A stretch of 48,047 bases of DNA from Frankiales bacterium (lineage in GTDB: Bacteria > Actinomycetota > Actinomycetes > Mycobacteriales > SCTD01). The stretch's first letter is position 1, and every line of letters starts with the position of its first letter. Under the pieces are notes generated by a model. That model saw only the letters and a list, made by a program, of their open reading frames with translations, did no database searches and had not been told where the DNA came from. The DNA lies in contig JAOPWV010000137.1 in the NCBI GenBank assembly GCA_025965475.1, positions 1-48,047 of the forward strand, written 5' to 3'. Both the position numbers and the translations under genes were made by a program. Below, piece after piece: positions 12,573 to 31,651 of the stretch.

Positions 12573-13310
12573 GTGCGCGTCGCCCTGTTCGTCACGTGTC
12601 TGGTCGACACGCTGTTCCCGCAGGTCGGCCGGGCGACGGTGTCGCTACTGGAGCGGCTGGGGCACGAGGTCGTCGTACCGTCCGGCCAGAGCTGCTGCGG
12701 GCAGCCGCAGATCAACACCGGTTACCAGCGCGAGGCCCTGCCGCTGATCCGCCGGCACACCGACGTCTTCTCGGCGTACGACGCGGTGGTGGCGCCGTCC
12801 GGCTCCTGCGTCGGCAGCATCCGGCACCAGCACGCCATGGTGGCGCGGCGGGCCGGTGACGACGGTCTGGCCACGGCGGCCCACGACGTCGGCACCCGGA
12901 CGTACGAACTCTCCGAGTTCCTCGTTGACGTGCTCGGTGTGGAGGACGTCGGCGCGTCGTTCCCGCACCGCGTGACCTACCACCCCACCTGCCACTCGCT
13001 GCGGATGCTGCGGGTGGGCGACAAGCCGCTGCGCCTGCTGCGCAACGTCCGCGGACTCGACCTCGTCGAACTGCCGGCCGCCGACCAGTGCTGCGGCTTC
13101 GGCGGGACCTTCGCGGTGAAGAACGCGGACACGTCGACGGCGATGCTCGCCGACAAGATGCAGCACGTCCTCGACACCGAGGCCGAGGTCTGCACGGCAG
13201 GTGACTCCTCGTGTCTCATGCAGATCGGCGGCGGGCTCTCCCGCCTGCGCGCGGGCACCCGGACGCTCCACCTCGCCGAGATCCTGGCGTCCACGGAGCC
13301 TGCGGCATGA
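12573..13310 (+). CDS. lutA: L-lactate utilisation protein LutA ((Fe-S)-binding, CCG domains)
   Basis: A 245-residue protein with two cysteine-rich CCG domains: C9 with SCCGQP (C41, C42), and HPTCHS with CCGFGG in the second half. This is LutA/LldE, one of three subunits of the LutABC complex that oxidises L-lactate to pyruvate. GTG 12573 follows GGGGGAGG. Its first base is also the last base of the stop of a 9-codon reading frame at 12544-12573. The stop overlaps lutB's ATG by 4 bp, so the three lut genes are translationally linked. Confidence 0.94.
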   Translation: MRVALFVTCLVDTLFPQVGRATVSLLERLGHEVVVPSGQSCCGQPQINTGYQREALPLIRRHTDVFSAYDAVVAPSGSCVGSIRHQHAMVARRAGDDGLATAAHDVGTRTYELSEFLVDVLGVEDVGASFPHRVTYHPTCHSLRMLRVGDKPLRLLRNVRGLDLVELPAADQCCGFGGTFAVKNADTSTAMLADKMQHVLDTEAEVCTAGDSSCLMQIGGGLSRLRAGTRTLHLAEILASTEPAA

Positions 13311-14785
13311 GCACCTTCCTCGGCATGCCCGACGTCGGGCACGCGCCGCGGGGGGTGGGGCACCTGCGGGGCGAGGAGCCGTTCCCCGCCGCGGCGCGCA
13401 AGGCCCTGGCGAACGCCCAGCTGCGGCGCAACATCGGGCACGCCACCTCGACGATCCGCGCGAAGCGGGCCGCCGTGGTCGGCGAGGTTCCGGACTGGGA
13501 GGAGCTCAGGACGGCCGGTCGGGACATCAAGAACGCCACGATGCACCGGCTCGACAGCTACCTCGAGCAGCTCGAGGCCAACATCCAGGCGCGCGGCGGG
13601 GTCGTGCACTGGGCCCGCGACGCCATCGAGGCCAACGAGATCGTCACCCGGCTCGTGAAGGCCACCGGGTCGGACGAGGTCGTCAAGGTCAAGTCGATGG
13701 CGACCCAGGAGATCGGCCTCAACGAGGCGCTGGAGGCGGCCGGCATCACGCCGTACGAGACCGACCTCGCCGAGCTCATCGTGCAGCTCGGCCACGACCT
13801 GCCGTCGCACATCCTCGTCCCGGCCATCCACCGCAACCGTGCGGAGATCCGGGAGATCTTCCTCCGCGAGATGCCGGACGCGGACCCCGGCCTGACGGAC
13901 GAGCCGCAGGTGCTGGCGATGGCTGCACGCAAGCACCTGCGGGAGAAGTTCCTCACGGCGCGGGTCGCGATCAGCGGCGCGAACTTCGCCGTGGCCGAGA
14001 CGGGGACGCTGTCGGTCGTCGAGTCCGAGGGGAACGGGCGGATGTGCCTGACCCTGCCGCAGACCCTGATCACGGTGATGGGCATCGAGAAGGTCGTCCC
14101 GGCCTGGACCGACCTCGAGGTGTTCCTGCAGCTGCTGCCGCGATCGTCCACGGGCGAGCGGATGAACCCGTACACCTCGATGTGGACGGGGGTGACCCCG
14201 GGCGACGGCCCGCAGGAGTTCCACCTGGTCCTGCTCGACAACGGCCGGACGGCGACGCTGGCCGACCCGGACGGTCGGGAGGCGCTCAACTGCATCCGGT
14301 GCAGTGCCTGCCTGAACGTCTGCCCGGTGTACGAGCGGACCGGCGGCCATGCCTATGGATCGGTGTACCCGGGGCCGATCGGCGCCGTGCTCTCCCCGCA
14401 GCTGACCGGCATCGAGGACAACGCGTCGCTGCCGTACGCCTCCTCGCTGTGCGGGGCCTGCTACGACGTCTGCCCGGTGAAGATCGACATTCCGACCATG
14501 CTGGTGCACCTGCGCGCCGAGCACGTCGACGCCCGGCGTGCGGAGGGCCGGCCCTCACCAGAGGCGCTGGTGATGCGCGCGGCGGCCTGGACGATGAGCA
14601 ACCCGCGGCGCTGGGCGCTGGCGCAGCGGCTGACCCGGCTCGGCCGGCTGCTGGGGCGCCGTCGGGACCGGATCTCGCAGCTGCCGCCGCCGCTGTCGTC
14701 GTGGACGGCCAGCCGCGACCTGCCCCGCCCGCCGGAGGAGACGTTCAGCGAGTGGTGGACCCGGACCAGGGGGAGCCAGCCGTGA
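13307..14785 (+). CDS. lutB: L-lactate utilisation iron-sulfur protein LutB
   Basis: A 492-residue protein with an N-terminal LUD-type domain and a ferredoxin-like module. The first iron-sulfur motif has C329, C332, C335 and C339 (CIRCSACLNVCP). The second has C382, C385 and C389 (CGACYDVCP). Length and order match LutB/LldF. It is the electron-transferring core of the LutABC lactate oxidase. ATG 13307 overlaps the lutA stop, and the TGA overlaps lutC's GTG. The ETGTLSVVESEGNGR stretch is characteristic of the family. Confidence 0.95.
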   Translation: MSTFLGMPDVGHAPRGVGHLRGEEPFPAAARKALANAQLRRNIGHATSTIRAKRAAVVGEVPDWEELRTAGRDIKNATMHRLDSYLEQLEANIQARGGVVHWARDAIEANEIVTRLVKATGSDEVVKVKSMATQEIGLNEALEAAGITPYETDLAELIVQLGHDLPSHILVPAIHRNRAEIREIFLREMPDADPGLTDEPQVLAMAARKHLREKFLTARVAISGANFAVAETGTLSVVESEGNGRMCLTLPQTLITVMGIEKVVPAWTDLEVFLQLLPRSSTGERMNPYTSMWTGVTPGDGPQEFHLVLLDNGRTATLADPDGREALNCIRCSACLNVCPVYERTGGHAYGSVYPGPIGAVLSPQLTGIEDNASLPYASSLCGACYDVCPVKIDIPTMLVHLRAEHVDARRAEGRPSPEALVMRAAAWTMSNPRRWALAQRLTRLGRLLGRRRDRISQLPPPLSSWTASRDLPRPPEETFSEWWTRTRGSQP

Positions 14786-19854: not shown

Positions 19855-22407
19855 GTGACCGCAGTGCAGTCTGCGCGGGACCTGGTCGTCCAGGTACCGG
19901 CCATTGTGCAGGCATCAGAGCCGGCTCTGGAAGTCATCAGGGTAGAGGTCCCCGTGCAGGAGGGGCCCTGGCCGCACGAGCAGGCGGCGGGGGGCTTGCA
20001 CGTGAGCATCATCGTCCCCACGCGCAACGAAGCTGGCAACGTCGCGGAACTGCTGCGACGCATCGACGGGGGCGCCGAGGCGTTGCGCGTGGAGACCGTC
20101 TTCGTCGATGACAGCGACGACGACACACCCCAGCGGGTGCTCGAGGCGGGAGCGCTACTCGGCAGGCCGGTACGGCTGCTGCACCGGGCACGAGGAGATC
20201 GCGCGGACGGCCTCGGGGGCGCCGTCGTCAAGGGACTGGTCGCGGCCGACGCCGCCGGCGTCCCCTGGGCCGTGGTCATGGACGGGGACCTGCAGCACCC
20301 GCCGGAGCTCGTACCGGAACTTCTGCGCGTCGCCTCCGAGGCGGATGCGGACATCGTCGTCGCCAGTCGGTACGCGGGCACGGGCGACGCCGAAGGTCTG
20401 TCCAACCGCGGCCGGACGGCCGTCTCCCGCTTTGCGACGCTCGCAGCCAGGGTGCTCTTCCCGCGTCGGCTGCGGCCCATCAGCGATCCCATGAGTGGAT
20501 TCTTCGCCCTGCGGCTGGGTGCTGTCGACCTGTCGGCGCTGCGTCCCAAGGGGTTCAAGATCCTGCTCGAGATCGTTTTGCGCGGCGATGAGCTCAAAGC
20601 GGTCGAGGTGCCCTTCCACTTCGGTCCCCGGTTCTCCGGCCACAGCAAGGCGAGCATGCGCGAGGGGCTCCGCTTCCTGCAGCAGCTCGTCGTGCTGCGG
20701 ACGGTCGCCCGTGGCTTTCGCACCCCGGCCGCGGGAAGGTTCGCCCGCGCCGCCGGGTTCGGCAGCGTCGGCCTCACAGGCCTTGCGGTGAACGCGGTCC
20801 TGCTCTGGCTCCTGGCCGATCCTGCCGGGCTCCACCTGCACTACGTCTGGGCCTCGATCCTGGCCACGCAGGGATCGACCATCTGGAACTTCGTCCTCAC
20901 CGATCTCGTGGTCTTCCGGCGCCTGCGTTCCGGCAGCCTGCGCCGGCGCTTTGTGCGCTTCGCCTTGCTGAACAACGCCGTCCTGCTGCTGCGGCTGCCC
21001 CTGGTGGTGGCCCTCGTCGCAGGTGCGCATCTCGGCTACGTCGCCGCGAACGTCCTCACGCTCGTGCTGGCCTTCCTGTGCCGGTTTCAGATCGCAGACC
21101 GCTTCATCTACCCCCCGGAGGTATCAGACATGAGACTGGTGGAAGCCGGCAAGCTCGACGTGCCGAGGCAGCACCGCGGCGCCGCGGGAGAACCGCTCGT
21201 TGCCGTGGATCCGCTGCCCGGGACGGGCCCCCGCGCGGGCCGGCGCCCCACCGTCGACGTCATCCTCGACCTGACCGAGCAGGTGCGGCCCACACCGGCC
21301 GCGCGCCGTCCGGGGACGGGCTACCTGCCGCACCGCTACGGCATCAGCGGCCTGGTCACCATCGGCTCCCAGGTCGCCCTGCCCGAACTCGAGTTCTTCC
21401 GCGCACCTGCTCTCGGGCGAGGTCTGGACATCGAGATCCGCGTCGGGACCGTCGGTTCAGGCAGGGCCCGCTCGCGGGCACAGCTGAGCCGGTTCGCCGG
21501 TCCGGTATCCCTGCGCTACGAGGAGCACCTCGGACGGCTCGGCGCGAACTTCCAGATCGACATGGGTGACCGCATCGAGCTGACCGTCACGCCGCTGCTG
21601 GCCCGGTCGCCGCATGTGCTGTACACGAACGTGCTGGAGGCACTGCTGCGGTTCATCCTCGTGCAGCAAGACAGGATGCTTCTCCACTCGGCCTGCCTCG
21701 AGCTCGAGGGTCGCGGCGTCATGTTGTCGGCGAAGACCGACACCGGGAAGACAGGCACGATCCTGCGGCTGCTGCGGGAGCAGCAGGCCCGCTTCCTGTC
21801 CGACGACATGACGATCCTGCAGACGGATGGCACCGCCTTCTGCTTCCCCAAGCCGCTGACGATCAGCCACCACACGTTGAGGGCCGTGGATCCCGGCGAC
21901 CTCTCCCCGCGGGAATGGCGCAGGTTGAAGATCCAGAGCCGGCTGCACTCCAAGGAGGGACGCCAGTGGGGGATGATGCTCGGTGAGCTCAACGTCCCGC
22001 TGATGTCGTTCAACGCGGTCACCCAGATGCTCGTACCGCCGCCCAAGTACGCGGTGGACCGGCTCGTTCCGGCGGACGTGACCGGGTCGGTGGTGGTCGA
22101 GGAGATGTTCATCATCGAGCGCGGCACGCCGGCCCTGTCGGACATCGAACACCGCACGGCGCTGACCGAGTTGATCGAGAACACCGACGACGCCTACGGA
22201 TTCCCGCCGTTCCGCTACTTCGCGCCGGCCATCGTGCTCGGACACGACGACTACGACACGCTGCGCGACAAGGAGACCGCCGTACTGTCCGCGGCGCTGG
22301 AGGGCATGCGCGTACGGCGGCTTGCCTCGGACTGCTTCTCGTGGGCCGATGAGATCCCGCGCCTGCTGAAGGCACCCATCCTCGCCGAGGAGCGCTTCTC
22401 CTCCTAG
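19855..22407 (+). CDS. Fusion: polyprenyl-P-sugar synthase (GT2) + GtrA + HPr kinase-like domain
   Basis: An 850-residue three-part protein. Residues about 49-290 are a GT2 of the dolichol-phosphate mannose synthase type: SIIVPTRNE at 51-59, the DGDLQHPPE metal site with D143 and D145, and a conserved RYAGTGD loop. Residues about 298-415 are a GtrA-like membrane domain with four helices. Residues about 600-790 resemble HPr kinase/phosphorylase: LLHSACLELEGRGVML, a P-loop AKTDTGKT (K632) with Ala in place of the first Gly, and SDD at 649-651. The 415-600 segment is unassigned. GTG 19855 has GGAGGG at good distance. It probably makes a lipid-linked sugar used by the GT39 enzyme downstream; the kinase-like part may regulate or phosphorylate. 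Confidence 0.88.
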   Translation: MTAVQSARDLVVQVPAIVQASEPALEVIRVEVPVQEGPWPHEQAAGGLHVSIIVPTRNEAGNVAELLRRIDGGAEALRVETVFVDDSDDDTPQRVLEAGALLGRPVRLLHRARGDRADGLGGAVVKGLVAADAAGVPWAVVMDGDLQHPPELVPELLRVASEADADIVVASRYAGTGDAEGLSNRGRTAVSRFATLAARVLFPRRLRPISDPMSGFFALRLGAVDLSALRPKGFKILLEIVLRGDELKAVEVPFHFGPRFSGHSKASMREGLRFLQQLVVLRTVARGFRTPAAGRFARAAGFGSVGLTGLAVNAVLLWLLADPAGLHLHYVWASILATQGSTIWNFVLTDLVVFRRLRSGSLRRRFVRFALLNNAVLLLRLPLVVALVAGAHLGYVAANVLTLVLAFLCRFQIADRFIYPPEVSDMRLVEAGKLDVPRQHRGAAGEPLVAVDPLPGTGPRAGRRPTVDVILDLTEQVRPTPAARRPGTGYLPHRYGISGLVTIGSQVALPELEFFRAPALGRGLDIEIRVGTVGSGRARSRAQLSRFAGPVSLRYEEHLGRLGANFQIDMGDRIELTVTPLLARSPHVLYTNVLEALLRFILVQQDRMLLHSACLELEGRGVMLSAKTDTGKTGTILRLLREQQARFLSDDMTILQTDGTAFCFPKPLTISHHTLRAVDPGDLSPREWRRLKIQSRLHSKEGRQWGMMLGELNVPLMSFNAVTQMLVPPPKYAVDRLVPADVTGSVVVEEMFIIERGTPALSDIEHRTALTELIENTDDAYGFPPFRYFAPAIVLGHDDYDTLRDKETAVLSAALEGMRVRRLASDCFSWADEIPRLLKAPILAEERFSS

Positions 22408-22469: not shown

Positions 22470-22564
22470 CCGGCACGGCCACCCAGCAGGTGACATGCAA
22501 CGTTCGCAGGCATATGTCGCACCGACGGTCGGGACGGCAACGCCCTCCACACAGAGGATCGGGA

Positions 22565-25150
22565 ATGGCAGGAACTCGGGGGCGGCACCAGCTGCCACGT
22601 GAGGCCCCGGCCAAGCCGCGTGGCCGGCGGTCCGCGGTGCCGGTACTCGTGGCCCTGCTCACCGCCGCCGTGGCCGTCCCGATCGCGGCCGCGGCCGACA
22701 CGAGCGCGCCCACACAGCCGGGCAGGATCACCACCTCGAACATCACCTCGTCGGGGGCTTCGCTCAAGTGGGGCGGGTCGAGCGATGACGTGGCCATCGA
22801 GGGCTACCGGGTGTACCGCGGTCCGGCGGCGGCGGCCGACACGGCACTGACGCTCATCGCCACCACCGATGCGATCACGTCGTATCCGGGCACGAAACTG
22901 CGCAGCGGCTATGCCTACAAGTTCGGGATCGTGGCCATCGACGCCGGCAACAACAAGTCGCCGATGCGTACGACGACGTTCACGACGCTGACCAGTTCCG
23001 ACTCGACGGCTCCTGCGGCCGTCGCAAGCACCAGCGTCTCCTTGACGCCCTTCTCGTCCTCGCGCATCGACGTGCTGTGGGGAGCGACGACCTCCAGCGA
23101 CATCGCCTACTACGAGGTGGCCCGGGACGGCAGCGTCGTGGGGACGGTGGAGCAGCCCAACTCGCAGCGCTACTCCGACAACGGCCTCGCGGCCTCGTCG
23201 CGGCACAGTTACACAGTGCGGGCCGTGGACTCGGCAGGCAACCGGTCGGCAGCCAGCACCGCGAAATCGGCGACGACCACCGCCGCGGGCGTCGTAAAGA
23301 TCGCGCGTGGGCCCTACCTGTCCGCGGTCACCGGGACGTCCGGGATCGTCTCGTGGTGGACGAACATCGCCACGCCCGGCACGCTCACGATCGGCGGGCA
23401 GACGATCAGCGATCCGGCCGGGACGGTCCAGCACCACACCGTCACCGTGTCTGGACTGACGCCGGGCACCGCCTACCCCTACACGGTGAAGAGCGGAGCG
23501 ATCTCGGGGACAGGGAACCTCCGGACCGCAGCGACGCCGACACAGACGTTCAGCTTCGCCGCCATCGGTGACTTCGGGGGTCAGAGCACGGCCGAGGCGC
23601 AGAACGCGAGCAACATCGGGGCCGCCGGCACGGACTTCATCCAGACCCTGGGTGACAACGTCTACCCGTCGGCCGGCCTGCCCGACCCCAACTTCACGAC
23701 GACATACTCGGACTTCGACGCCCGCTTCTACAAGCAGTTCGGGCGGGTGGTGAAGTCCCAGGCCTTCTTCCCCGCGAACGGCAACAAGGAGTACTACGGC
23801 GACGGCGCCTTCTGGGCGAACTTCCCGATGCCAGGAGGCAGTACCAGCTGGTACAGCTACAACTGGGGCTCGGCGCACATCCTCGTCCTCGACTCGGAGC
23901 AGCCGATAGCGCCGGGGAGCGACCAGTACGCCTTCGCGCAGGCCGATCTTGCCGCGCACCAGAGCGACGCGTGGCGGATCGCCGCCATCCAGAAGCCGCC
24001 GTACAGCTCGACGTCCTCGAACTCGAGCTTCGTGGCCGGCCAGCAGTACCTCGTGCCCCTCTTCCAGACGCAGCACGTGAACCTGGTCCTCTCGGGCAAC
24101 AGCCACAACTACGAGCGGTCGTTCCCGCTCAAGGACGGCGTCGCCGTGACCAACGGCGGGATCACCTATCTCGTCTCGGGTGCCGGTGGCAACGGGTTCA
24201 CCCCCTTCGTCAGCCCGCAGCCCGCCTGGAGCGCCTACCGGGAGGCCACTTTCTTCGAGTACGCGAAGGTGACCGTCTCGCCGACCACGATCACGGTGGA
24301 CGGCATCAGGGCGGACACGAATGCCGTCTTCGACAGCACCACCATCACGAACCCGTCCAGTGACACGGTGGCGCCGGGTGCGCCGGCGGGGTTGGCGGCG
24401 GGGACGCCGACGGCGAGTTCGGTGCCGTTGAGCTGGAGTGCGAACCCGGCAGGTGATGGTGTGACGGGCTACACCGTGTATCGCAACGACGTGACGGCGC
24501 CCGCGGGTACGGCCCTGACCGGGACCACGTTCACCGACACCGGGCTGGCCGCGAGCACGACGTACTCGTACAGGGTGACGGCGGTGGACGGGGCCGGCAA
24601 CGAGTCGGCCAAGAGCGCGGCGGTGTCGGTGACGACCCAGGCCGGTGGTGGCGGTGGGGGCGGCACGTTGACGCTCGCGCCGAGCAACGACGCCACGATC
24701 GATCCGGCAACCGCCACGCCGACCAACAGCCGGCTCAAGGTCGATGCGAGCAGTCCGGTGAACGACACACTCTTGAAGTTCACCGTGCCCAGCAGTTGCA
24801 CGAGCATCGCGGCAGCGAGTCTGCAGCTCACGGTGGGCAGCGGGACTACCGATCCTTCGGCGCACGGCGGGGACTTCTTCGCCACGTCGGCCGGCGATGC
24901 GAACGCCGGCTGGACCGAGGCTTCGGTCACCTGGGCCACCGCCCCGGCCAAGAGCGCCAGCATCGCCTCGGTGCCGCTCGGCGCGGTGACGGCCGGGACC
25001 ACCTACACGGTCAACGTGACCAGCCTGGTCCCGGCCGCCGGCGGCACGTTCACGATCCGCGCGTCCAGCAGCAGCGGCGACGGTGCCGGCTACTTCTCCA
25101 AAGAAGGCAGCAGCACCAGCGGCCCCACGCTCCAACTCACCTGCAGCTAG
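22565..25150 (+). CDS. Secreted FN3/purple acid phosphatase-like protein with altered metal site
   Basis: An 861-residue exported protein. A basic leader and hydrophobic stretch end at AAAADTS. Two FN3 domains (about 45-235) and a PAP N-terminal-like domain (to 330) follow. A metallophosphoesterase domain covers about 330-590, then a third FN3 and a C-terminal DNRLRE/CBM96-like beta domain with a Gly linker. D336, D364, Y367, N407 and H514 are in place. However the GNH motif reads GNK (K408), the HxPxY His is Q476, and GHxH reads GNSH (N512). By homology to plant purple acid phosphatase, two ligands of the second metal and a catalytic His are lost, so it may bind rather than hydrolyse phosphate esters. 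Confidence 0.85.
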   Translation: MAGTRGRHQLPREAPAKPRGRRSAVPVLVALLTAAVAVPIAAAADTSAPTQPGRITTSNITSSGASLKWGGSSDDVAIEGYRVYRGPAAAADTALTLIATTDAITSYPGTKLRSGYAYKFGIVAIDAGNNKSPMRTTTFTTLTSSDSTAPAAVASTSVSLTPFSSSRIDVLWGATTSSDIAYYEVARDGSVVGTVEQPNSQRYSDNGLAASSRHSYTVRAVDSAGNRSAASTAKSATTTAAGVVKIARGPYLSAVTGTSGIVSWWTNIATPGTLTIGGQTISDPAGTVQHHTVTVSGLTPGTAYPYTVKSGAISGTGNLRTAATPTQTFSFAAIGDFGGQSTAEAQNASNIGAAGTDFIQTLGDNVYPSAGLPDPNFTTTYSDFDARFYKQFGRVVKSQAFFPANGNKEYYGDGAFWANFPMPGGSTSWYSYNWGSAHILVLDSEQPIAPGSDQYAFAQADLAAHQSDAWRIAAIQKPPYSSTSSNSSFVAGQQYLVPLFQTQHVNLVLSGNSHNYERSFPLKDGVAVTNGGITYLVSGAGGNGFTPFVSPQPAWSAYREATFFEYAKVTVSPTTITVDGIRADTNAVFDSTTITNPSSDTVAPGAPAGLAAGTPTASSVPLSWSANPAGDGVTGYTVYRNDVTAPAGTALTGTTFTDTGLAASTTYSYRVTAVDGAGNESAKSAAVSVTTQAGGGGGGGTLTLAPSNDATIDPATATPTNSRLKVDASSPVNDTLLKFTVPSSCTSIAAASLQLTVGSGTTDPSAHGGDFFATSAGDANAGWTEASVTWATAPAKSASIASVPLGAVTAGTTYTVNVTSLVPAAGGTFTIRASSSSGDGAGYFSKEGSSTSGPTLQLTCS

Positions 25151-25288
25151 GGCGGTTGCCCGATGCCCGAAGGGACCGATGCATTCGATGACCACGTCGT
25201 CTGGCCGATCCGTACGGCGTTCCGGAACGGCGGCACCTCAGCGAAGCCGCCGACTTCCCGTGACGCAGCCGCCTACCCGGAGGAAAGC

Positions 25289-26947
25289 ATGACGCTGGTG
25301 TCGATGCCGCAGACCGAGTCCCGGCTCCGCAATCGTCGCGAGGGCAGGGCAAGAACATCGGCCGGCAGACTCAACGGGACGTCGGTGCAGTCGGCTGCCG
25401 TCGCAGGCGTCGCTGTCCTGGGCGCGTTCCTGCGGCTCTGGCAGTTGGGGTCCGTCGGCTTCAACAGCGACGAAGCGGTCTACGCGGGCCAAGCCGCCAG
25501 CATCGCGGGTAACGACACGCTGATGTCCTACTTCCCGATCTTCCGCGCGCATCCGCTGCTCTTCCAGGCCACGCTGTCGCTCTTCTACCGGCAGGGCGTC
25601 TCCGACGCAGGTGGGCGCGTGCTGGCCGCCGCTTTCGGTGTGGCAACCCTGTTCGTGGTCCTCCTGCTCGGCCGGGAGCTCTACGGCTTCTGGACCGGGC
25701 TGGTCGCCATGCTGTTCCTGGCGGTCATGCCGTACCACGTCATCGTGACCCGGCAGGTCCTCCTGGACGGGCCGATGGTGCTCTTCGCAACCCTGGCCCT
25801 CTACTTCCTGGTCCGCTTCTGCAACGAGGCGCGCGACGCCTGGCTGTTGATGTCGGCTCTGTTCCTCGGGCTCGCCGCACTGACGAAGGAGACGAGCGTC
25901 GTCCTGCTGGTCTCCGTCTACGCCTTCTTCGCCCTCAGCACGCGCCTGCGCCTGCGGATGCGGACGGGCCTCCTCGGCGTACTCGCGATGCTCCTGCTGC
26001 TCGCCGTCTTCCCGATGTCGATCGCCCTGTCGCACGCCACGAGCACTGGTGGCAGTTACCTCGTGTACCAGCTGCTCCGACCGGCGAACCACAGCCTCAC
26101 CTTCTACCTCAGCAAGGTGCCGTCGGCATTGGGCCTGCTCCTCGTGGCGCTCGCACTTGCCGGCCCGATGCTGGTGCTGGCCCGGTGGGCCGGCTCTGCG
26201 AGCCGTCGTGCACTGCGGCGTCCCGGTCCGGCGGCTGCCGGTATCACGATCCGGGGCCTGACCTGGCGGGAGGGGTTGTTGTTGTGCTGGGCCGCGGGGC
26301 CCATCCTGGTCTTCGAGTCGCTGCCCGTGAAGGGGTTCCAGTACCTGCTTCCCATCGCGCCGGTCGTGGCGGTGCTGGCGGCACACGCGGTGCTGCGCCC
26401 GCCGATCAGCAGCGTCCGGTTCACGGTCCGGGAAGGTCTCCGTCTGCCGCTGCGGATCGCGGTCATCGTGGTGGTCGCGCTGACGATGGCGCTGCCGACC
26501 TGGGGAGCCATCAGGCCATCGAGCTCGCCGGCCTTCCTGGCCGGAGCCGGCGGGCTTCCGGGCGGACGCGAAGCCGGTAGGTGGATCGACGCCAACCTGC
26601 CGAAGAACGCGGTCCTCATGACGATCGGCCCGTCCTTGTCGAACCTCGTCGAGTTCTACGGTCACCGCGAGGCACTGGCTCTGTCCGTGAGCCCCAACCC
26701 GCTCAACCGGAACCCGGCGTACGTGGCCATCGACAACCCCGACCTGCGGATCAGACGCGGGCAGTTCCACTACCTCGTCTGGGACACCTACTCGGCAAGC
26801 CGTTCCCCCCAGTTCTCCGACAGGCTTCTCCAGTACGCGAACAAGTACCACGGCGTCGCCGTGCACACGGAGACGCGACCCGTCCGGTCGAGGGACGGCC
26901 ATGTCGTCCAGCGGCCGATCATCACCATCTATGAGGTGCAACCGTGA
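25289..26947 (+). CDS. GT39-type membrane glycosyltransferase (PMT/ArnT-like)
   Basis: A 552-residue polytopic membrane protein with about 10-12 helices. The first extracytoplasmic loop has FNSDEAVYAGQ, where D61-E62 is the catalytic acidic pair of GT-C enzymes that use polyprenyl-phosphate sugars. The C-terminal 120 residues form a soluble outer domain. An excellent GGAGGAAAG site fixes ATG 25289. The family transfers a sugar from a lipid phosphate to protein or lipid, and the upstream fusion would make such a donor. Its stop overlaps the next gene by 4 bp. Confidence 0.9.
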   Translation: MTLVSMPQTESRLRNRREGRARTSAGRLNGTSVQSAAVAGVAVLGAFLRLWQLGSVGFNSDEAVYAGQAASIAGNDTLMSYFPIFRAHPLLFQATLSLFYRQGVSDAGGRVLAAAFGVATLFVVLLLGRELYGFWTGLVAMLFLAVMPYHVIVTRQVLLDGPMVLFATLALYFLVRFCNEARDAWLLMSALFLGLAALTKETSVVLLVSVYAFFALSTRLRLRMRTGLLGVLAMLLLLAVFPMSIALSHATSTGGSYLVYQLLRPANHSLTFYLSKVPSALGLLLVALALAGPMLVLARWAGSASRRALRRPGPAAAGITIRGLTWREGLLLCWAAGPILVFESLPVKGFQYLLPIAPVVAVLAAHAVLRPPISSVRFTVREGLRLPLRIAVIVVVALTMALPTWGAIRPSSSPAFLAGAGGLPGGREAGRWIDANLPKNAVLMTIGPSLSNLVEFYGHREALALSVSPNPLNRNPAYVAIDNPDLRIRRGQFHYLVWDTYSASRSPQFSDRLLQYANKYHGVAVHTETRPVRSRDGHVVQRPIITIYEVQP

Positions 26948-28269
26948 AGCAACGAGCAGCGTTCTGCGCGGCCGTGCTCTGCCTGCTGCTGGCTGCGTCC
27001 TCTGCCGCTGCCGCCGGGCCGGCACCGGCGCCGACGAAGACACCGATCAAGCACTTCGTGGTGCTCATGCAGTCCGGGCACTCCTTCGACAACTACTTCG
27101 GCAGCTATCCTGGCGCCGACGGCATCCCTGCCGGTGTCTGCCAGCGCCTGGACGTCAACAAGGCGAGCACGCACAACTGCGTGAAGCCGTTCCATCTGGA
27201 CGACATGACGCCGCCCGAGAATCTGCCCCGGGGGCTGAAGGTCCTGAGCCGCCAGTACAACGGCGGCAAGATGGACGGCTTCGTGTCGGCCTACCGTCGC
27301 CTGGGGCACGACGGAACGACGGCGATGGGCTACTACGACGACAGCAACCTGCCCTACACCTGGAGCGTGGCCAGGCAGAACGTGCTGTTCGACCGCTTCT
27401 TCAGCTCCACCCCAGGGCCCGCCAGTCAGAGCTACCTGGACTGGCTGGATGGGGCCCCGCCGAACCGGTCGGCGACGGCCGTCCAACCCACCATCTTCGA
27501 CAGGCTGGGTGAGAAGGGCATCACCGCGAAGTTCTACGTGGAGGGCCTGCGGCCTCCGGGGGACGTTGCCGGCAACGGCGCGGCCCAGTCCCTCAAGGTG
27601 CCGGTGCTGGGGATGGCCCGATTCCGGACGCGCACGTCCCCGGTACAGGTCGTCGACCTCAGCGAGTACTACCGCGACCTGGCGCAGGGGACGCTGCCTG
27701 CCGTCTCGTACATCGTCTCGTCCACCTCGAGCGAGAACCCCCCGGCCCGGCCGGCGGTGGGGCAGTCCTTTCTCCGTCAGGTGACCAGCGGGCTCATCAA
27801 GAGCCGCTACTGGAAGAGCTCCGCGTTCATGTGGACCTACGACAGCTACGGCGGCTGGTACGACCACGTCCAGCCCCCCTTCGTGGATCAGCAGCAGCTG
27901 GGCCTGCGGGTGCCGGCGCTCCTGCTCAGCCCGTACGCCAAGGTCGGCCACGTCGACCACACGCAGCTCGACTACACGAGCATTCCGAGGTTCATCGAGG
28001 ACAACTGGTCGCTCCGGCCGCTCAGCAGCCGGGATGCGTCGTCACCTGGTCTGACGACCGCGTTCGACTTCACGGCACCAGCCCGGCCCGCCGCGTTGCT
28101 CGAGGACACGGGCGGACTGCCCTCACTCGTCATGCCCGCAGCGGCAAACGCACGCGCGTCCCGGGTGATCTACCTGCTTTACGGGGCTGCGGTGGTACTC
28201 GCCGCATGCTGCCTGGCGGCAGCCGTCAGCGGCCGTCGCTTCCGCCACCGGAGAGGAGCAAGAGGATGA
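26944..28269 (+). CDS. Membrane-anchored phosphoesterase (PF04185-like) with changed motif
   Basis: A 441-residue protein with a signal peptide, an alkaline-phosphatase-fold phosphoesterase domain and a C-terminal helix (about 409-429) followed by RRFRHRR, so it faces outward. The fold marker HSFDNYFGSYPGADG is clear, but the usual ENxSFD metal ligands Glu-Asn are Ser44-Gly45. The later acidic pair in YDxxGGWYDH keeps D300 but has Ser at 301. In well-studied members (phospholipase C, AcpA) these residues hold the metal. A divergent actinobacterial subgroup may share this, and I cannot say whether it is active. It overlaps both neighbours by 4 bp. Confidence 0.85.
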   Translation: MKQRAAFCAAVLCLLLAASSAAAAGPAPAPTKTPIKHFVVLMQSGHSFDNYFGSYPGADGIPAGVCQRLDVNKASTHNCVKPFHLDDMTPPENLPRGLKVLSRQYNGGKMDGFVSAYRRLGHDGTTAMGYYDDSNLPYTWSVARQNVLFDRFFSSTPGPASQSYLDWLDGAPPNRSATAVQPTIFDRLGEKGITAKFYVEGLRPPGDVAGNGAAQSLKVPVLGMARFRTRTSPVQVVDLSEYYRDLAQGTLPAVSYIVSSTSSENPPARPAVGQSFLRQVTSGLIKSRYWKSSAFMWTYDSYGGWYDHVQPPFVDQQQLGLRVPALLLSPYAKVGHVDHTQLDYTSIPRFIEDNWSLRPLSSRDASSPGLTTAFDFTAPARPAALLEDTGGLPSLVMPAAANARASRVIYLLYGAAVVLAACCLAAAVSGRRFRHRRGARG

Positions 28270-29507
28270 CCTTGGTGCCTCTCGTCGGCAAGGCTGCGTC
28301 CGTGGCCGTGATCCTGGCAGGGCTGCTGGCGCCGACAGCGCCACAGAAGCCTGTCGCCGTCCCGCCCGCCGCGTCGGCGCCCGGACTGCCTGCACCCGGA
28401 CTGGCGGCTCCCGCAGTGCCGGTTCCCGGCGTCTCGCATCCGCTCCTGACGCAGGCTGGGCCGGCCCCGCAGGCAGCCCGCGTCGCGGCGTCACCACCGC
28501 CGCACCCGCACAAGGTCCCGCGCCCTCCGCGGCCCCACCCGCACAAGATCCCGGTCATTCCCCGGCCACACCCGCACCGCGCGGTTGCGGTGGTGGAGAT
28601 CCAGACGGTGCCGTCACTGCCCGGGGCGGCGTTCCTCCTCGACGGCCGCCGTCTGGTGGCTGACAACCAGGGGATCGTCAGGACCTCGGTCACGACGGGC
28701 AATGCCCTGCACAGCCTGTCGGTCGCCACGTCCACGGCCGAGCAGAGTGGCCGGCAGATGGAGTTCGTGCGCTGGGGGATCCCGGGCGACAGCGACGAGA
28801 ACTTCAAGCCGGCGGTCACCAAGCTCGCGATCCGGCACAACGTGCGGATCCAGGCCGCCTACAAGGTGAGCTATCTCGTGTCGTACCGGCTGGTCGACCA
28901 GTCGGGCGCCGCCGTCGCGAGGTCCCGGGCGGGACAGGTGGCGCTGCGTGGCGAGACCGGCTACGTCGCCGTCTCGAACGCGGGGGACAAGGTCAGGTTG
29001 CCGGGCATCCGGTTGCTGTCCCAGAACGGAGCCGTCGTGGCCAAGGAACTGGTCTACGACGTCCAACGCGTCATGGTCGACGGCTCCAATGTCGTCCAGG
29101 TGGGCAGCCAGCGATTCCGCCCGGCGCAGGCACAGCAGCTGGACATCCCGTTGCAACTGCGCACCGCGCACTTCACCGCGCACGACCTTCTGTTCCAGCG
29201 TCCCCTGGGCGCATCGCTCGACGTCGTGTATCCGAACGGCCGGACCCGCCGCGAGGCGCTGTCGGGCGGCCAGGTGACGCTGGAGAGCCTCGCCCGCGGA
29301 AACTACCGGGTGCAGGTGAACGGTGCAGGCATCTCCTTCATGCGCCCCATCGCCCTCTCGCGTAATCAGTACGTTGATCTGCCGGTCATCAGCTACCTGG
29401 ACCTGGCGGTCCTCAGCAGCGCGGCGCTGGCCGCCCTCGGCGGCCTCCTGTTCGTGGGAGTACGCCGACGGCGCCGCGTCCGGACGGGTCCGGAGCCGGC
29501 ATTGTGA
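28266..29507 (+). CDS. Membrane protein with His-Pro repeats and PEGA-like domain
   Basis: A 413-residue protein with an N-terminal hydrophobic segment, a long Pro/Ala-rich linker, three PHPHK/R repeats at 79-83, 90-94 and 101-105 (exact 11-residue period), then a beta-rich region. The start of that region (VPSLPGAAFLLDGRRLVADNQG) resembles PEGA surface domains. A membrane helix at about 375-395 and an RRRRRVR tail anchor it. The His pairs could bind Zn, Ni or Cu, or the linker may span the wall. No known family recognised. ATG 28266 overlaps the previous stop; the stop overlaps the next GTG. Confidence 0.75.
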   Translation: MTLVPLVGKAASVAVILAGLLAPTAPQKPVAVPPAASAPGLPAPGLAAPAVPVPGVSHPLLTQAGPAPQAARVAASPPPHPHKVPRPPRPHPHKIPVIPRPHPHRAVAVVEIQTVPSLPGAAFLLDGRRLVADNQGIVRTSVTTGNALHSLSVATSTAEQSGRQMEFVRWGIPGDSDENFKPAVTKLAIRHNVRIQAAYKVSYLVSYRLVDQSGAAVARSRAGQVALRGETGYVAVSNAGDKVRLPGIRLLSQNGAVVAKELVYDVQRVMVDGSNVVQVGSQRFRPAQAQQLDIPLQLRTAHFTAHDLLFQRPLGASLDVVYPNGRTRREALSGGQVTLESLARGNYRVQVNGAGISFMRPIALSRNQYVDLPVISYLDLAVLSSAALAALGGLLFVGVRRRRRVRTGPEPAL

Positions 29508-31651
29508 GAGTCCGGCTTCTGTTCTTTCTCGTCGTCCTCCTGGGTGTCAGTGCCGGGGGCACCGGTCCACTGGCGGCTCCGCCGGCCCGTGCAGCCGGGC
29601 ACATGCCGGTCCTCGCGTACTACTACCAGTGGTTCGACCCCTCGTCCTGGGACCGGGTGAAGATCGACTACCCGGCCGCCGGACGCTACTCGAGTGACGA
29701 CCAGAACGTCATGCGGCGTCACATTCAGGAGGCCAAGGCCGTCGGGATCGAGGGGTTCATCGTCTCGTGGAAGGACAGCCCGACCAACGACCGCCGGCTG
29801 CATGTCCTGATGGAGGTGGCGCGGAGCGAGAACTTCAAGCTCGCGATGATCTACCAAGGGCTCGACTTCAGCCGTAAGCCGCTGCCGGTGCGTCGCGTCG
29901 CGGCTGACATGTTGACTTTCCAGCGGGACTACGCCGGTGACGGCGTCTTCAAGATCTTCGACCGACCCCTGATGCTGTGGTCGGGGACCTGGGCGTACAG
30001 CGCGGCGGACATCGAGCAGGTGACACGCCCGGTGCGGTCGTCGCTGCGGGTACTCGCCACGGAGAAGAGCGTGGCGGGCTACCAGCGGGTCGCCTCGAGC
30101 TTCGACGGCAACGCGTACTACTGGTCGTCGGTCAACCCGGACAGCAACCGCAGCCATGTCACGAAACTCGCCGACATGGGCCGCGCCGTGCACGCGCGGG
30201 GCGGGCTGTGGATCGCGCCGTTCGCGCCGGGCTTCGATGCCCGCCTCGTCGGCGGCAGCAAGACGGTCGACCGCAAGGACGGCGCGACGCTGCGGGCCGA
30301 GTACTCCGCAGCGGTGCAGTCCTCGCCCGACGCGCTCGGGCTCATCTCCTGGAACGAGTTCTCGGAGAACACCTACGTCGAGCCGAGCCAGACCTACGGC
30401 GATCGGTACCTGAAGGTTCTCGGCGAGTTGCTCAAGGCGCCGCCGGTCCCGGCATCGCCACTCGCCCAGGATTCCAGTGGTAATGGCTCCGGGTCCGGCG
30501 GCTTGTCTACCGGTCCTGTCGCGCTGATCGTGGTCGCTCTCATCCTCCTCGTCGCCGGTGGGGCCGCGGGGATCCGCCGCCGGAGCAAGGCCTCGGCGAA
30601 AGACAGGCCCGCGGACCCTCCTGAGTCGCTGCCTCCTACACCGCGCCGCCGGCGGTTCTGGCGCAGACGGAGATACCAACGGCTCCTCGCGGTGACCGTA
30701 CTCATGCTGGTGGCCGGCGGATCGGCCGTCATCGCGGTCGCTGCCGAGTCAGGGGACGAGGGGGTCGCGGCCGGGACCCGGTTCTACGGCGGTCCGAAAC
30801 CGGTGCGGGTCGACACGGACGTGGTCCTCGGCGCGGCCGGCGACATCGCCTGCCCGAAGGACGCCCGCGGACTCACCGAGGAAAAGGACCGGCCGAACTC
30901 GTGCCGGATGGCCGACACGGCCGCACTGCTACAGGCCATGCACCCGGACGCCGTCCTGGCACTGGGGGACAACCAGTACCCCAACGGTTCACTGGCGCGG
31001 TTCCAGGCGTCGTACGACCAGACCTGGGGGGCCTTCAAGACGATCACCTATCCCGTACCGGGAAACCACGAGTACGGGACGCCTGACGCCGCCGGCTACT
31101 TCAGTTACTTCGGGGCCGCTGCCGGCCTGCCGGGCGCCGGGTACTACAGCTACGACCTCGGTGGCTGGCACATCATCGCGCTGAACTCCGAGTGCGACCA
31201 CGTGGGCGGTTGCGGCCAAGGTTCGACGCAGGAGACCTGGCTCCGGCAGGATCTGGCGGCGCACCCGGCCGCCTGCACCCTGGCGTACTGGCACCGGCCC
31301 CGGTTCTCATCCGGGACGCACGGCAGCAACACCGACTACGACGCGTTCTGGAACGACCTCTCTGCCGCTGGGGCGGACGTCGTCCTCAACGGACACGATC
31401 ACGGCTACGAGCGGATCGGTCCGGTTGATGCCGCAGGCACTCCGCAAGCCGACAAGGGGCTCACGCAGTTCGTCGTCGGCACAGGTGGCGACAGCCATTA
31501 CAAGTTTCACGACGCGGTCTCCGGCAGCCAGGTACGGCTCGCCGGCCGCTACGGCATCCTGCAACTGCACCTCCGGCCGGGAACGTTCAGCTGGAACTTC
31601 CTCACGACCGATGGCGGCTCCGCGGATGCAGGAACGGGCCGTTGCCACTGA
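29504..31651 (+). CDS. Fusion: GH99-like glycosidase + two TM helices + metallophosphatase
   Basis: A 715-residue protein. A signal peptide is followed by a TIM-barrel-like domain (about 33-310) with AYYYQWFDP, GFIVSWKD and ISWNEFSEN (E285, E288), the layout of GH99/GH71-type endo-mannosidase-like proteins. Helix 1 (337-356) and helix 2 (394-414) flank a very basic 37-residue cytoplasmic loop. A metallophosphoesterase domain (about 440-715) then has a full canonical site: D447, D489, Y492, N521-H522-E523, H597, H631 and H633. Both enzyme domains should face outside. GTG 29504 overlaps the previous stop by 4 bp. It ends the cluster and overlaps the convergent HxlR gene by 50 bp. Confidence 0.85.
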   Translation: MRVRLLFFLVVLLGVSAGGTGPLAAPPARAAGHMPVLAYYYQWFDPSSWDRVKIDYPAAGRYSSDDQNVMRRHIQEAKAVGIEGFIVSWKDSPTNDRRLHVLMEVARSENFKLAMIYQGLDFSRKPLPVRRVAADMLTFQRDYAGDGVFKIFDRPLMLWSGTWAYSAADIEQVTRPVRSSLRVLATEKSVAGYQRVASSFDGNAYYWSSVNPDSNRSHVTKLADMGRAVHARGGLWIAPFAPGFDARLVGGSKTVDRKDGATLRAEYSAAVQSSPDALGLISWNEFSENTYVEPSQTYGDRYLKVLGELLKAPPVPASPLAQDSSGNGSGSGGLSTGPVALIVVALILLVAGGAAGIRRRSKASAKDRPADPPESLPPTPRRRRFWRRRRYQRLLAVTVLMLVAGGSAVIAVAAESGDEGVAAGTRFYGGPKPVRVDTDVVLGAAGDIACPKDARGLTEEKDRPNSCRMADTAALLQAMHPDAVLALGDNQYPNGSLARFQASYDQTWGAFKTITYPVPGNHEYGTPDAAGYFSYFGAAAGLPGAGYYSYDLGGWHIIALNSECDHVGGCGQGSTQETWLRQDLAAHPAACTLAYWHRPRFSSGTHGSNTDYDAFWNDLSAAGADVVLNGHDHGYERIGPVDAAGTPQADKGLTQFVVGTGGDSHYKFHDAVSGSQVRLAGRYGILQLHLRPGTFSWNFLTTDGGSADAGTGRCH

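Follow-up and report, generated by a model that had tools for sequence, protein, structure and literature searches.

The window analysed here (the whole stretch of DNA, 48,047 nucleotides, contig JAOPWV010000137.1 of a Frankiales bacterium) encodes on its forward strand (+) an 850-residue protein, at 19855..22407, in which a GT2 glycosyltransferase and a GtrA-type membrane domain are followed by a kinase-like domain with the fold of phosphoenolpyruvate carboxykinase (PEPCK) and HPr kinase (HprK). The open frame begins with a GTG at 19855, directly preceded by GGAGG, and Pfam places GT2 (PF00535, E=2.5e-18) at residues 51-198 and GtrA (PF04138, E=4.6e-16) at residues 302-418. The initial annotation had described a single chain with these three parts, which the uninterrupted frame and the Pfam matches bear out. 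What computation shows is the three-domain make-up, the fold, the invariance of catalytic-type residues in the kinase-like part and a fixed genomic partnership with a GT-C mannosyltransferase-like gene and membrane-anchored surface proteins.

Within the protein, the GT2 domain lies at 19987..20724 (+; residues 45-290), is of the dolichyl/polyprenyl-phosphate-mannose synthase type and carries the motif D143-G-D145-L-Q147-H148, as delimited by Pfam, PDB entry 5mlz and active-site mapping. The GtrA/dolichylphosphate mannose synthase (DPMS) membrane domain follows at 20749..21129 (+; residues 299-425), and in a simple hydropathy profile shows three clear helices of the four expected; the same profile shows none in the kinase part. 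The C-terminal kinase-like domain, of about 360 residues, occupies 21301..22404 (+; residues 483-850) as judged from conservation, an AlphaFold2 model and the fold. It begins near residue 490 and is thus longer than the initial annotation had it, at about 600-790 with a check range from 580. The sole Pfam match after GtrA is Hpr_kinase_C (E=0.019), below its cut-off.

In a phmmer search, residues 48-413 align with the DPMS of Pyrococcus furiosus (PfDPMS; 5mlz) across both the GT2 and the membrane domain (E=3.2e-53); ArnC-type structures match the window GT2 more weakly. PfDPMS is a chain of 374 residues without a kinase domain, and reads DADLQH where the window protein reads DGDLQH. Its description lists E12, D89, D91, Q93, H94, R117, R131, S135, F177, K178, R202 and K208 near the metal, donor or lipid phosphate (PMC5526996). 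The window equivalents of these listed residues are identical in 12/12 cases (E59, D143, D145, Q147, H148, R172, R187, S191, F234, K235, R259 and K265). According to the same source, the His near the mannosyl hydroxyl is an Asp in GtrB (PMC5526996). In the GT2 alignment of the family, which leaves out two short loci by a length filter (L029, L042), the His at the mannose-contact position is kept in 50/50 rows, which favours GDP-mannose as the predicted donor. The homology to 5mlz and the identical active-site residues make a polyprenyl-phosphate-mannose synthase of the archaeal DPMS type the likeliest identity of the first half, in keeping with the polyprenyl-phosphate-sugar synthase proposed before.

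Relatives of the kinase-like domain were sought with residues 483-850 as the query in whole genomes and with a species scan of 84,980 genomes, one per species. The scan gave 57 loci (labelled here by L and a number), 56 of which hold the family at E=1e-6; the other, L078, is a weak P-loop match. The kinase alignment joins the window to 53 of these loci, the short L072, L074, L075 and L078 being omitted, and the A2 alignment also leaves out L037 and L049. The motif positions given by the initial annotation agree with the translation: HSACLELEGRGVML at residues 611-624, AKTDTGKT at 626-633 with K632, and SDD at 649-651. In 54/54 rows the P-loop A-x-T-D-T-G-K-T, H611 and S649-D650-D651 are invariant, with H611, K632, T633, D650 and D651 as the catalytic-type residues; K666, Q694, S695, H698, R703, K731, R756 and others are invariant as well. 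The patterns of the locus scan contained SDDMT and NTDDAYG, so conservation at these two motifs is partly due to selection. No row matches the canonical P-loop GxxGxGK[ST]; all 54 have AxTDTGKT instead. The change of the first P-loop Gly to Ala had been noticed earlier, but it is not the sole one, since the Gly at position 4 is replaced by Asp. Its invariance makes the odd P-loop a mark of the family and rules out decay.

An AlphaFold2 model of the domain built from 52 rows (pLDDT 86.7, pTM 0.85) was compared with known structures. Foldseek ranks PEP carboxykinases best (6crt, E=5.6e-6) and also finds HPr kinase (1kkm, E=1.4e-3), while structural alignment of the model gives Z=15.0 with PEPCK 1yvy_A (289 residues aligned, root-mean-square deviation 3.9) and Z=13.2 with HprK 2qmh_K (138 residues, 4.1), so the HprK/PEPCK fold anticipated by the initial annotation is present. 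The likeness to ATP-dependent PEPCK (1yvy, 6com) extends over nearly the whole domain at an identity of about 11%; unlike PEPCK, the present domain has replaced P-loop glycines, is tethered to a membrane domain and sits in a glycosylation cassette. With HPr kinase/phosphorylase (2qmh, 1kkm, 1ko7) it shares the catalytic core order of His, P-loop and DD, and a weak HMMER alignment with 2qmh_A pairs H611 with the HprK His, P-loop with P-loop and DD with DD.

The profile searches place the domain outside the curated families, although it had been called HPr-kinase-like: the fold part of that description holds and membership in the HprK family does not, all curated cut-offs being missed. TIGR00679 and PF07475 give 17.4-19.1 and 15-16.4 bits, far below their cut-offs of 240 and 33.3 bits. 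The nearest NCBIfam model is HprK-related kinase A (TIGR04352, HprK_rel_A), with a local match of 22.8-24.4 bits against a cut-off of 200; 49/52 family members match it at E=0.01 or better. The suggested search against HprK and PEPCK families thus returned only sub-threshold matches of the HprK type; there was no PEPCK family model among the Pfam matches up to E=1, and a profile search of PDB sequences gave no significant match (2qmh, E=1.7). HPr itself (PF00381, E=0.001) was not found in the window's own genome (G000, 98.05% complete) by a search that was positive in 7/14 control genomes, and HprK was likewise not found there. HPr is therefore not a likely substrate and was rejected for this genome.

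The own genome has one match (a second at E=0.03 was taken as noise), and matches occur in 4/61 nearest-relative genomes, the own genome included and one of the four weak. Among 396 genomes of the phylum, a single-sequence search matched eight, full-length only in the own genome and G143, and a 52-row profile matched 22, strongly (E < 1e-120) only in these same two; the next profile match (E=7e-16) covers the P-loop region. The species scan found relatives in Actinomycetota, Chloroflexota and Truepera, with Streptomyces, Lentzea, Micromonospora, Pseudonocardia, Agromyces, Acidimicrobiales, Thermoleophilia, Nitriliruptorales, many Chloroflexi metagenome-assembled genomes (MAGs) and one Truepera MAG as hosts. 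Two further MAGs are labelled Proteobacteria and Deltaproteobacteria (L064 and L074), possibly through mis-binning.

Across the 56 family loci, seven arrangements of GT2, GtrA and kinase are seen, in which the three are fused or neighbours. All three share one open reading frame in 32 loci (L029 and L051 run off the contig 5' end inside GT2), so the fusion, which the initial annotation had called unusual, is a recurring family architecture and no oddity, and a chance fusion or assembly error is ruled out. GT2 adjoins a GtrA-kinase fusion in five loci and, in four, a fusion of GtrA, kinase and a protein mannosyltransferase (PMT)-like part, three of these being about 1200 residues long and L063 being cut by the contig end. 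GtrA lies near a GT2-kinase fusion in three loci, GtrA-kinase precedes GT2 in two, the three are separate genes in two, and GT2-GtrA precedes the kinase in one. Contig ends cut five loci (L030, L031, L055, L074, L075) and two have broken frames (L049, L072); in 49/49 of the remaining loci the kinase is linked to both GT2 and GtrA. A quickly built tree of the kinase domain (51 rows) puts the changes between arrangements at eight or more; this count omits L030, L031 and L055 and treats L049 as a fusion despite its broken frame and L064, whose contig ends at this point, as not PMT-fused. That these parts have been linked time and again, and not always in one order, strongly indicates a joint function. 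Three Chloroflexi frames, each about 1200 codons long and comprising GtrA, kinase-like and PMT-like GT-C parts, lie at L058:5746-9543, L065:7473-11081 and L077:6831-10460.

The kinase is the most conserved of the three modules. Mean identity to the window over 50 loci, calculated without L072 and loci lacking a domain, is 54.0% for the kinase, 45.3% for GT2 and 43.7% for GtrA, and the kinase exceeds GT2 in 42/50 loci and GtrA in 47/50. L027 has NxG as its GT2 metal motif, and the GT2 of two Lentzea loci, L038 and L042, has lost residues of the lipid-phosphate site and loop, yet in all three the kinase keeps every invariant residue; L027 stands apart from L038 and L042 on the tree, so GT2 decayed at least twice. 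Nine loci (eight of Chloroflexota type, and L073) have a different, more weakly matching GT2 with Ser for Gln in DxDxQH. A further DPMS-like GT2 match was found in 6/6 genomes tested and could supply lipid-linked mannose; the match in the own genome is interrupted by a stop. Retention of the kinase where the cis synthase is not kept makes it less likely that the kinase only regulates that synthase, and favours a step at the lipid-linked sugar, the flippase or the transferase.

Downstream of the fusion lies a cassette on the same strand. Its first gene (22490..25150, +; Pfam) encodes a secreted protein with fn3, purple-acid-phosphatase-like and CBM96 regions, and is a variable member of the cluster: phmmer with the full-length query matches it in 17/57 loci, a count that may include fn3-only matches. 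Next comes a GT-C membrane protein resembling protein mannosyltransferases (25163..26947, +; PMT_2, PF13231, E=1.2e-19) with the motif NSDEAVY, the D-E of which is invariant in 9 rows. This GT-C gene is matched at 52/56 family loci (52/57 of all), and four loci have it fused to the kinase. No match was obtained in the family loci L022, L045, L064 and L074, where the downstream sequence is 1616, 290, 273 and 1 bases long, respectively. The PMT-like gene of L057, L061 and L062 lies about 7-8.5 kb off on the opposite strand; L023, L026 and L031 give weak matches (1e-9 to 1e-12), with Pfam confirmation for L023. L023 and L031 hold a second kind of cassette with an additional GT2 enzyme and a GH5 enzyme.

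The GT-C gene is followed by a PF04185 phosphoesterase-like exoplasmic protein with a C-terminal transmembrane stretch (26944..28269, +; E=1.7e-57), by a membrane-anchored, beta-rich, pilin/CnaB-like surface protein (28266..29507, +; AlphaFold2 and Foldseek) and by a chain with a GH99/GH71-like domain, two transmembrane stretches and a calcineurin-like phosphoesterase domain (29504..31651, +; Pfam and hydropathy). The last three junctions of the cassette are 4-base overlaps, the start at 28266 being the first ATG of its frame. The three genes are found in 39/57, 36/57 and 37/57 loci, the last count taking in matches to the phosphoesterase domain alone, and because of contig ends all three counts are lower bounds. 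In the PF04185 protein the usual Glu-Asn pair is lost (Ser-Gly here) and varies in 35 rows, the GG and DH positions are retained, and the partner mostly has Gly at what we take to be the position of the family's nucleophilic Thr; as a family it is possibly drifting toward a non-catalytic role. The exoplasmic phosphoesterase was dropped as proof of a glycan phosphate, the metal-site residues being variable. The model of the pilin-like protein (pLDDT 95.0) matches Gram-positive pilins in Foldseek (6fwv, E=1.9e-9; BaTIE likeness). This previously unannotated protein has a His/Pro-rich stretch and a C-terminal transmembrane segment, and its domain is found outside the cassette too. The GH99/GH71-transmembrane-calcineurin-like chain is unusual and was seen in several loci (L035, L038, L042, L053). 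The pilin-like gene, used as a probe for cassettes without the kinase, matched 6/396 phylum genomes, and in this small sample no clear kinase-free cassette was found; the four of them without a full-length kinase match have it on contigs without a PMT match, several of these short, with a phosphoesterase match in L114.

With the same surface-sugar genes beside it in several bacterial phyla, the kinase-like domain probably serves as a functional step in a pathway of surface glycosylation. It is predicted to be an active, ATP-dependent kinase, probably on the cytosolic side, a placement suggested by the likeness to DPMS. In the aminoarabinose pathway, ArnC-ArnD-ArnEF-ArnT, a GT2 enzyme acting on polyprenyl phosphate, a cytosolic modifier, a flippase and a GT-C transferase work in turn, and modification of the lipid-linked sugar precedes its flipping. 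The modifier in that pathway (ArnD) is a deformylase, the parts are separate genes and the target is Gram-negative lipid A. Since GT2, modifier, flippase-like membrane domain and GT-C follow the same order of jobs here, phosphorylation of lipid-linked mannose is rated the likeliest single mechanism, although we hold it only tentatively and at less than even chance. The GT2 domain would make lipid-linked mannose on the inner face, and the attached PEPCK/HprK-fold kinase would there take the slot of ArnD, adding phosphate before flipping. After flipping, the GT-C enzyme would transfer the sugar on the outside, and a phosphomannosyl unit would thereby leave the cell. Several points weigh against this proposal: the acceptor is suggested by gene order; the known relatives of the fold phosphorylate an HPr serine, a peptide end or oxaloacetate and are not known to act on lipid-linked sugars; with two of three P-loop glycines gone, ATP binding itself is putative; the cytosolic placement is by analogy and one expected GtrA helix is not clear in the hydropathy profile; and the exoplasmic phosphoesterase partner, which might be taken to handle the phosphate, gives little support, because typical metal-site residues are lost in many members. 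A slightly more doubtful proposition is that the cassette of Actinomycetota, Chloroflexota and Truepera makes and exports a novel type of activated sugar, polyprenyl phosphate with a mannose phosphorylated by the PEPCK-fold kinase, from which the GT-C enzyme would build phosphoglycans on surface proteins or polymers.

Ranked second, and somewhat unlikely in our estimate, is a regulatory kinase that switches the supply of lipid-linked sugar on or off, either by phosphorylating the synthase, GtrA or GT-C transferase or, like HprK, by sensing ATP or a sugar metabolite. HprK is a regulatory protein kinase, and the present kinase is fused to or adjoins GT2, GtrA and PMT, as a regulator of them might be. 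Phosphorylation of yeast DPMS at Ser141, which corresponds to Ser135 of PfDPMS, raises activity, according to PMC5526996; on that correspondence the window equivalent is S191, kept in 48/50 rows. However, the serine is kept in 0/3 of the loci with a decayed cis GT2 (L027, L038, L042), in which the kinase is fully conserved, and Chloroflexota-type loci have exchanged their GT2 partner. The decayed cases make plain gating of the kinase's own synthase less likely, but they and the exchanged partners do not count against a narrower form in which the GT-C enzyme or GtrA is controlled.

It is improbable that the kinase instead phosphorylates Ser or Thr of a protein before export, such as the pilin-like protein or another mannosyltransferase substrate, or acts on an unrelated small molecule. 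HprK and the lasso-peptide kinases, of the same fold, do modify serines of proteins or peptides, and the pilin-like protein is a steady neighbour, but no conserved Ser/Thr was seen by eye in the conservation lines of the cytosolic tails of the anchored partners, and L023, L026, L031, L057, L061 and L062 keep the kinase with no pilin-like match in the fetched flank. As regards a possible lasso-peptide cluster, the window neighbours scanned (small open reading frames in part) are envelope and metabolic genes.

About as improbable is a kinase that converts polyprenol to polyprenyl phosphate and feeds the adjoining GT2. Channelling would be natural if a lipid kinase were fused to the synthase using its product, and the kinase domain is tethered to a membrane domain; against this, the kinase persists where GT2 has decayed, no relative of the fold is known to act on polyprenols, and PMT-type transfer returns polyprenyl phosphate rather than polyprenol, so the cycle needs no polyprenol kinase. 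A pseudokinase that binds nucleotide or merely organises GT2, GtrA and GT-C proteins in one complex would suit the replacement of two P-loop glycines by Ala and Asp and the fusions in many orders, but is just as improbable, because all 54 rows keep both the altered P-loop and the catalytic-type His, Lys, Thr and Asp-Asp, for which a scaffold would have no use.

The fold and the synthase are of known kinds, whereas the kinase family, its invariant altered P-loop, the fusions and the cassette are new to the extent of the literature searches made, which in open-licence PMC text brought up no title or abstract start that names the fusion. The kinase, conserved and apparently catalytic, extends one of the oldest pathways of membrane sugar transfer, in a genome that shows neither HPr nor HprK. 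If the kinase acts on lipid-linked mannose, this would be new chemistry for glycan building; if it is a regulator, surface glycosylation would be under direct nucleotide or metabolite control. The natural separations of the domains and the fusions with decayed GT2 are ready constructs for deciding between these readings.

Searches for plasmid and PHROGs matches gave none. Distant stand-alone relatives of the kinase lie beside GT2 genes in 3/5 neighbourhoods (L017, L020 and L021, but not L018 and L019). Two of these HprK-like kinases, at L017:3778-4962 and L017:12788-14047, share one cluster with GT2, CBM96 and calcineurin-like phosphoesterase genes, and their P-loops also start with Ala but retain the second Gly. 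Elsewhere in the window, at 13211-14785, a LutB-type LUD/ferredoxin protein is followed by a frame that resembles LutC by eye, which are lactate utilisation genes.

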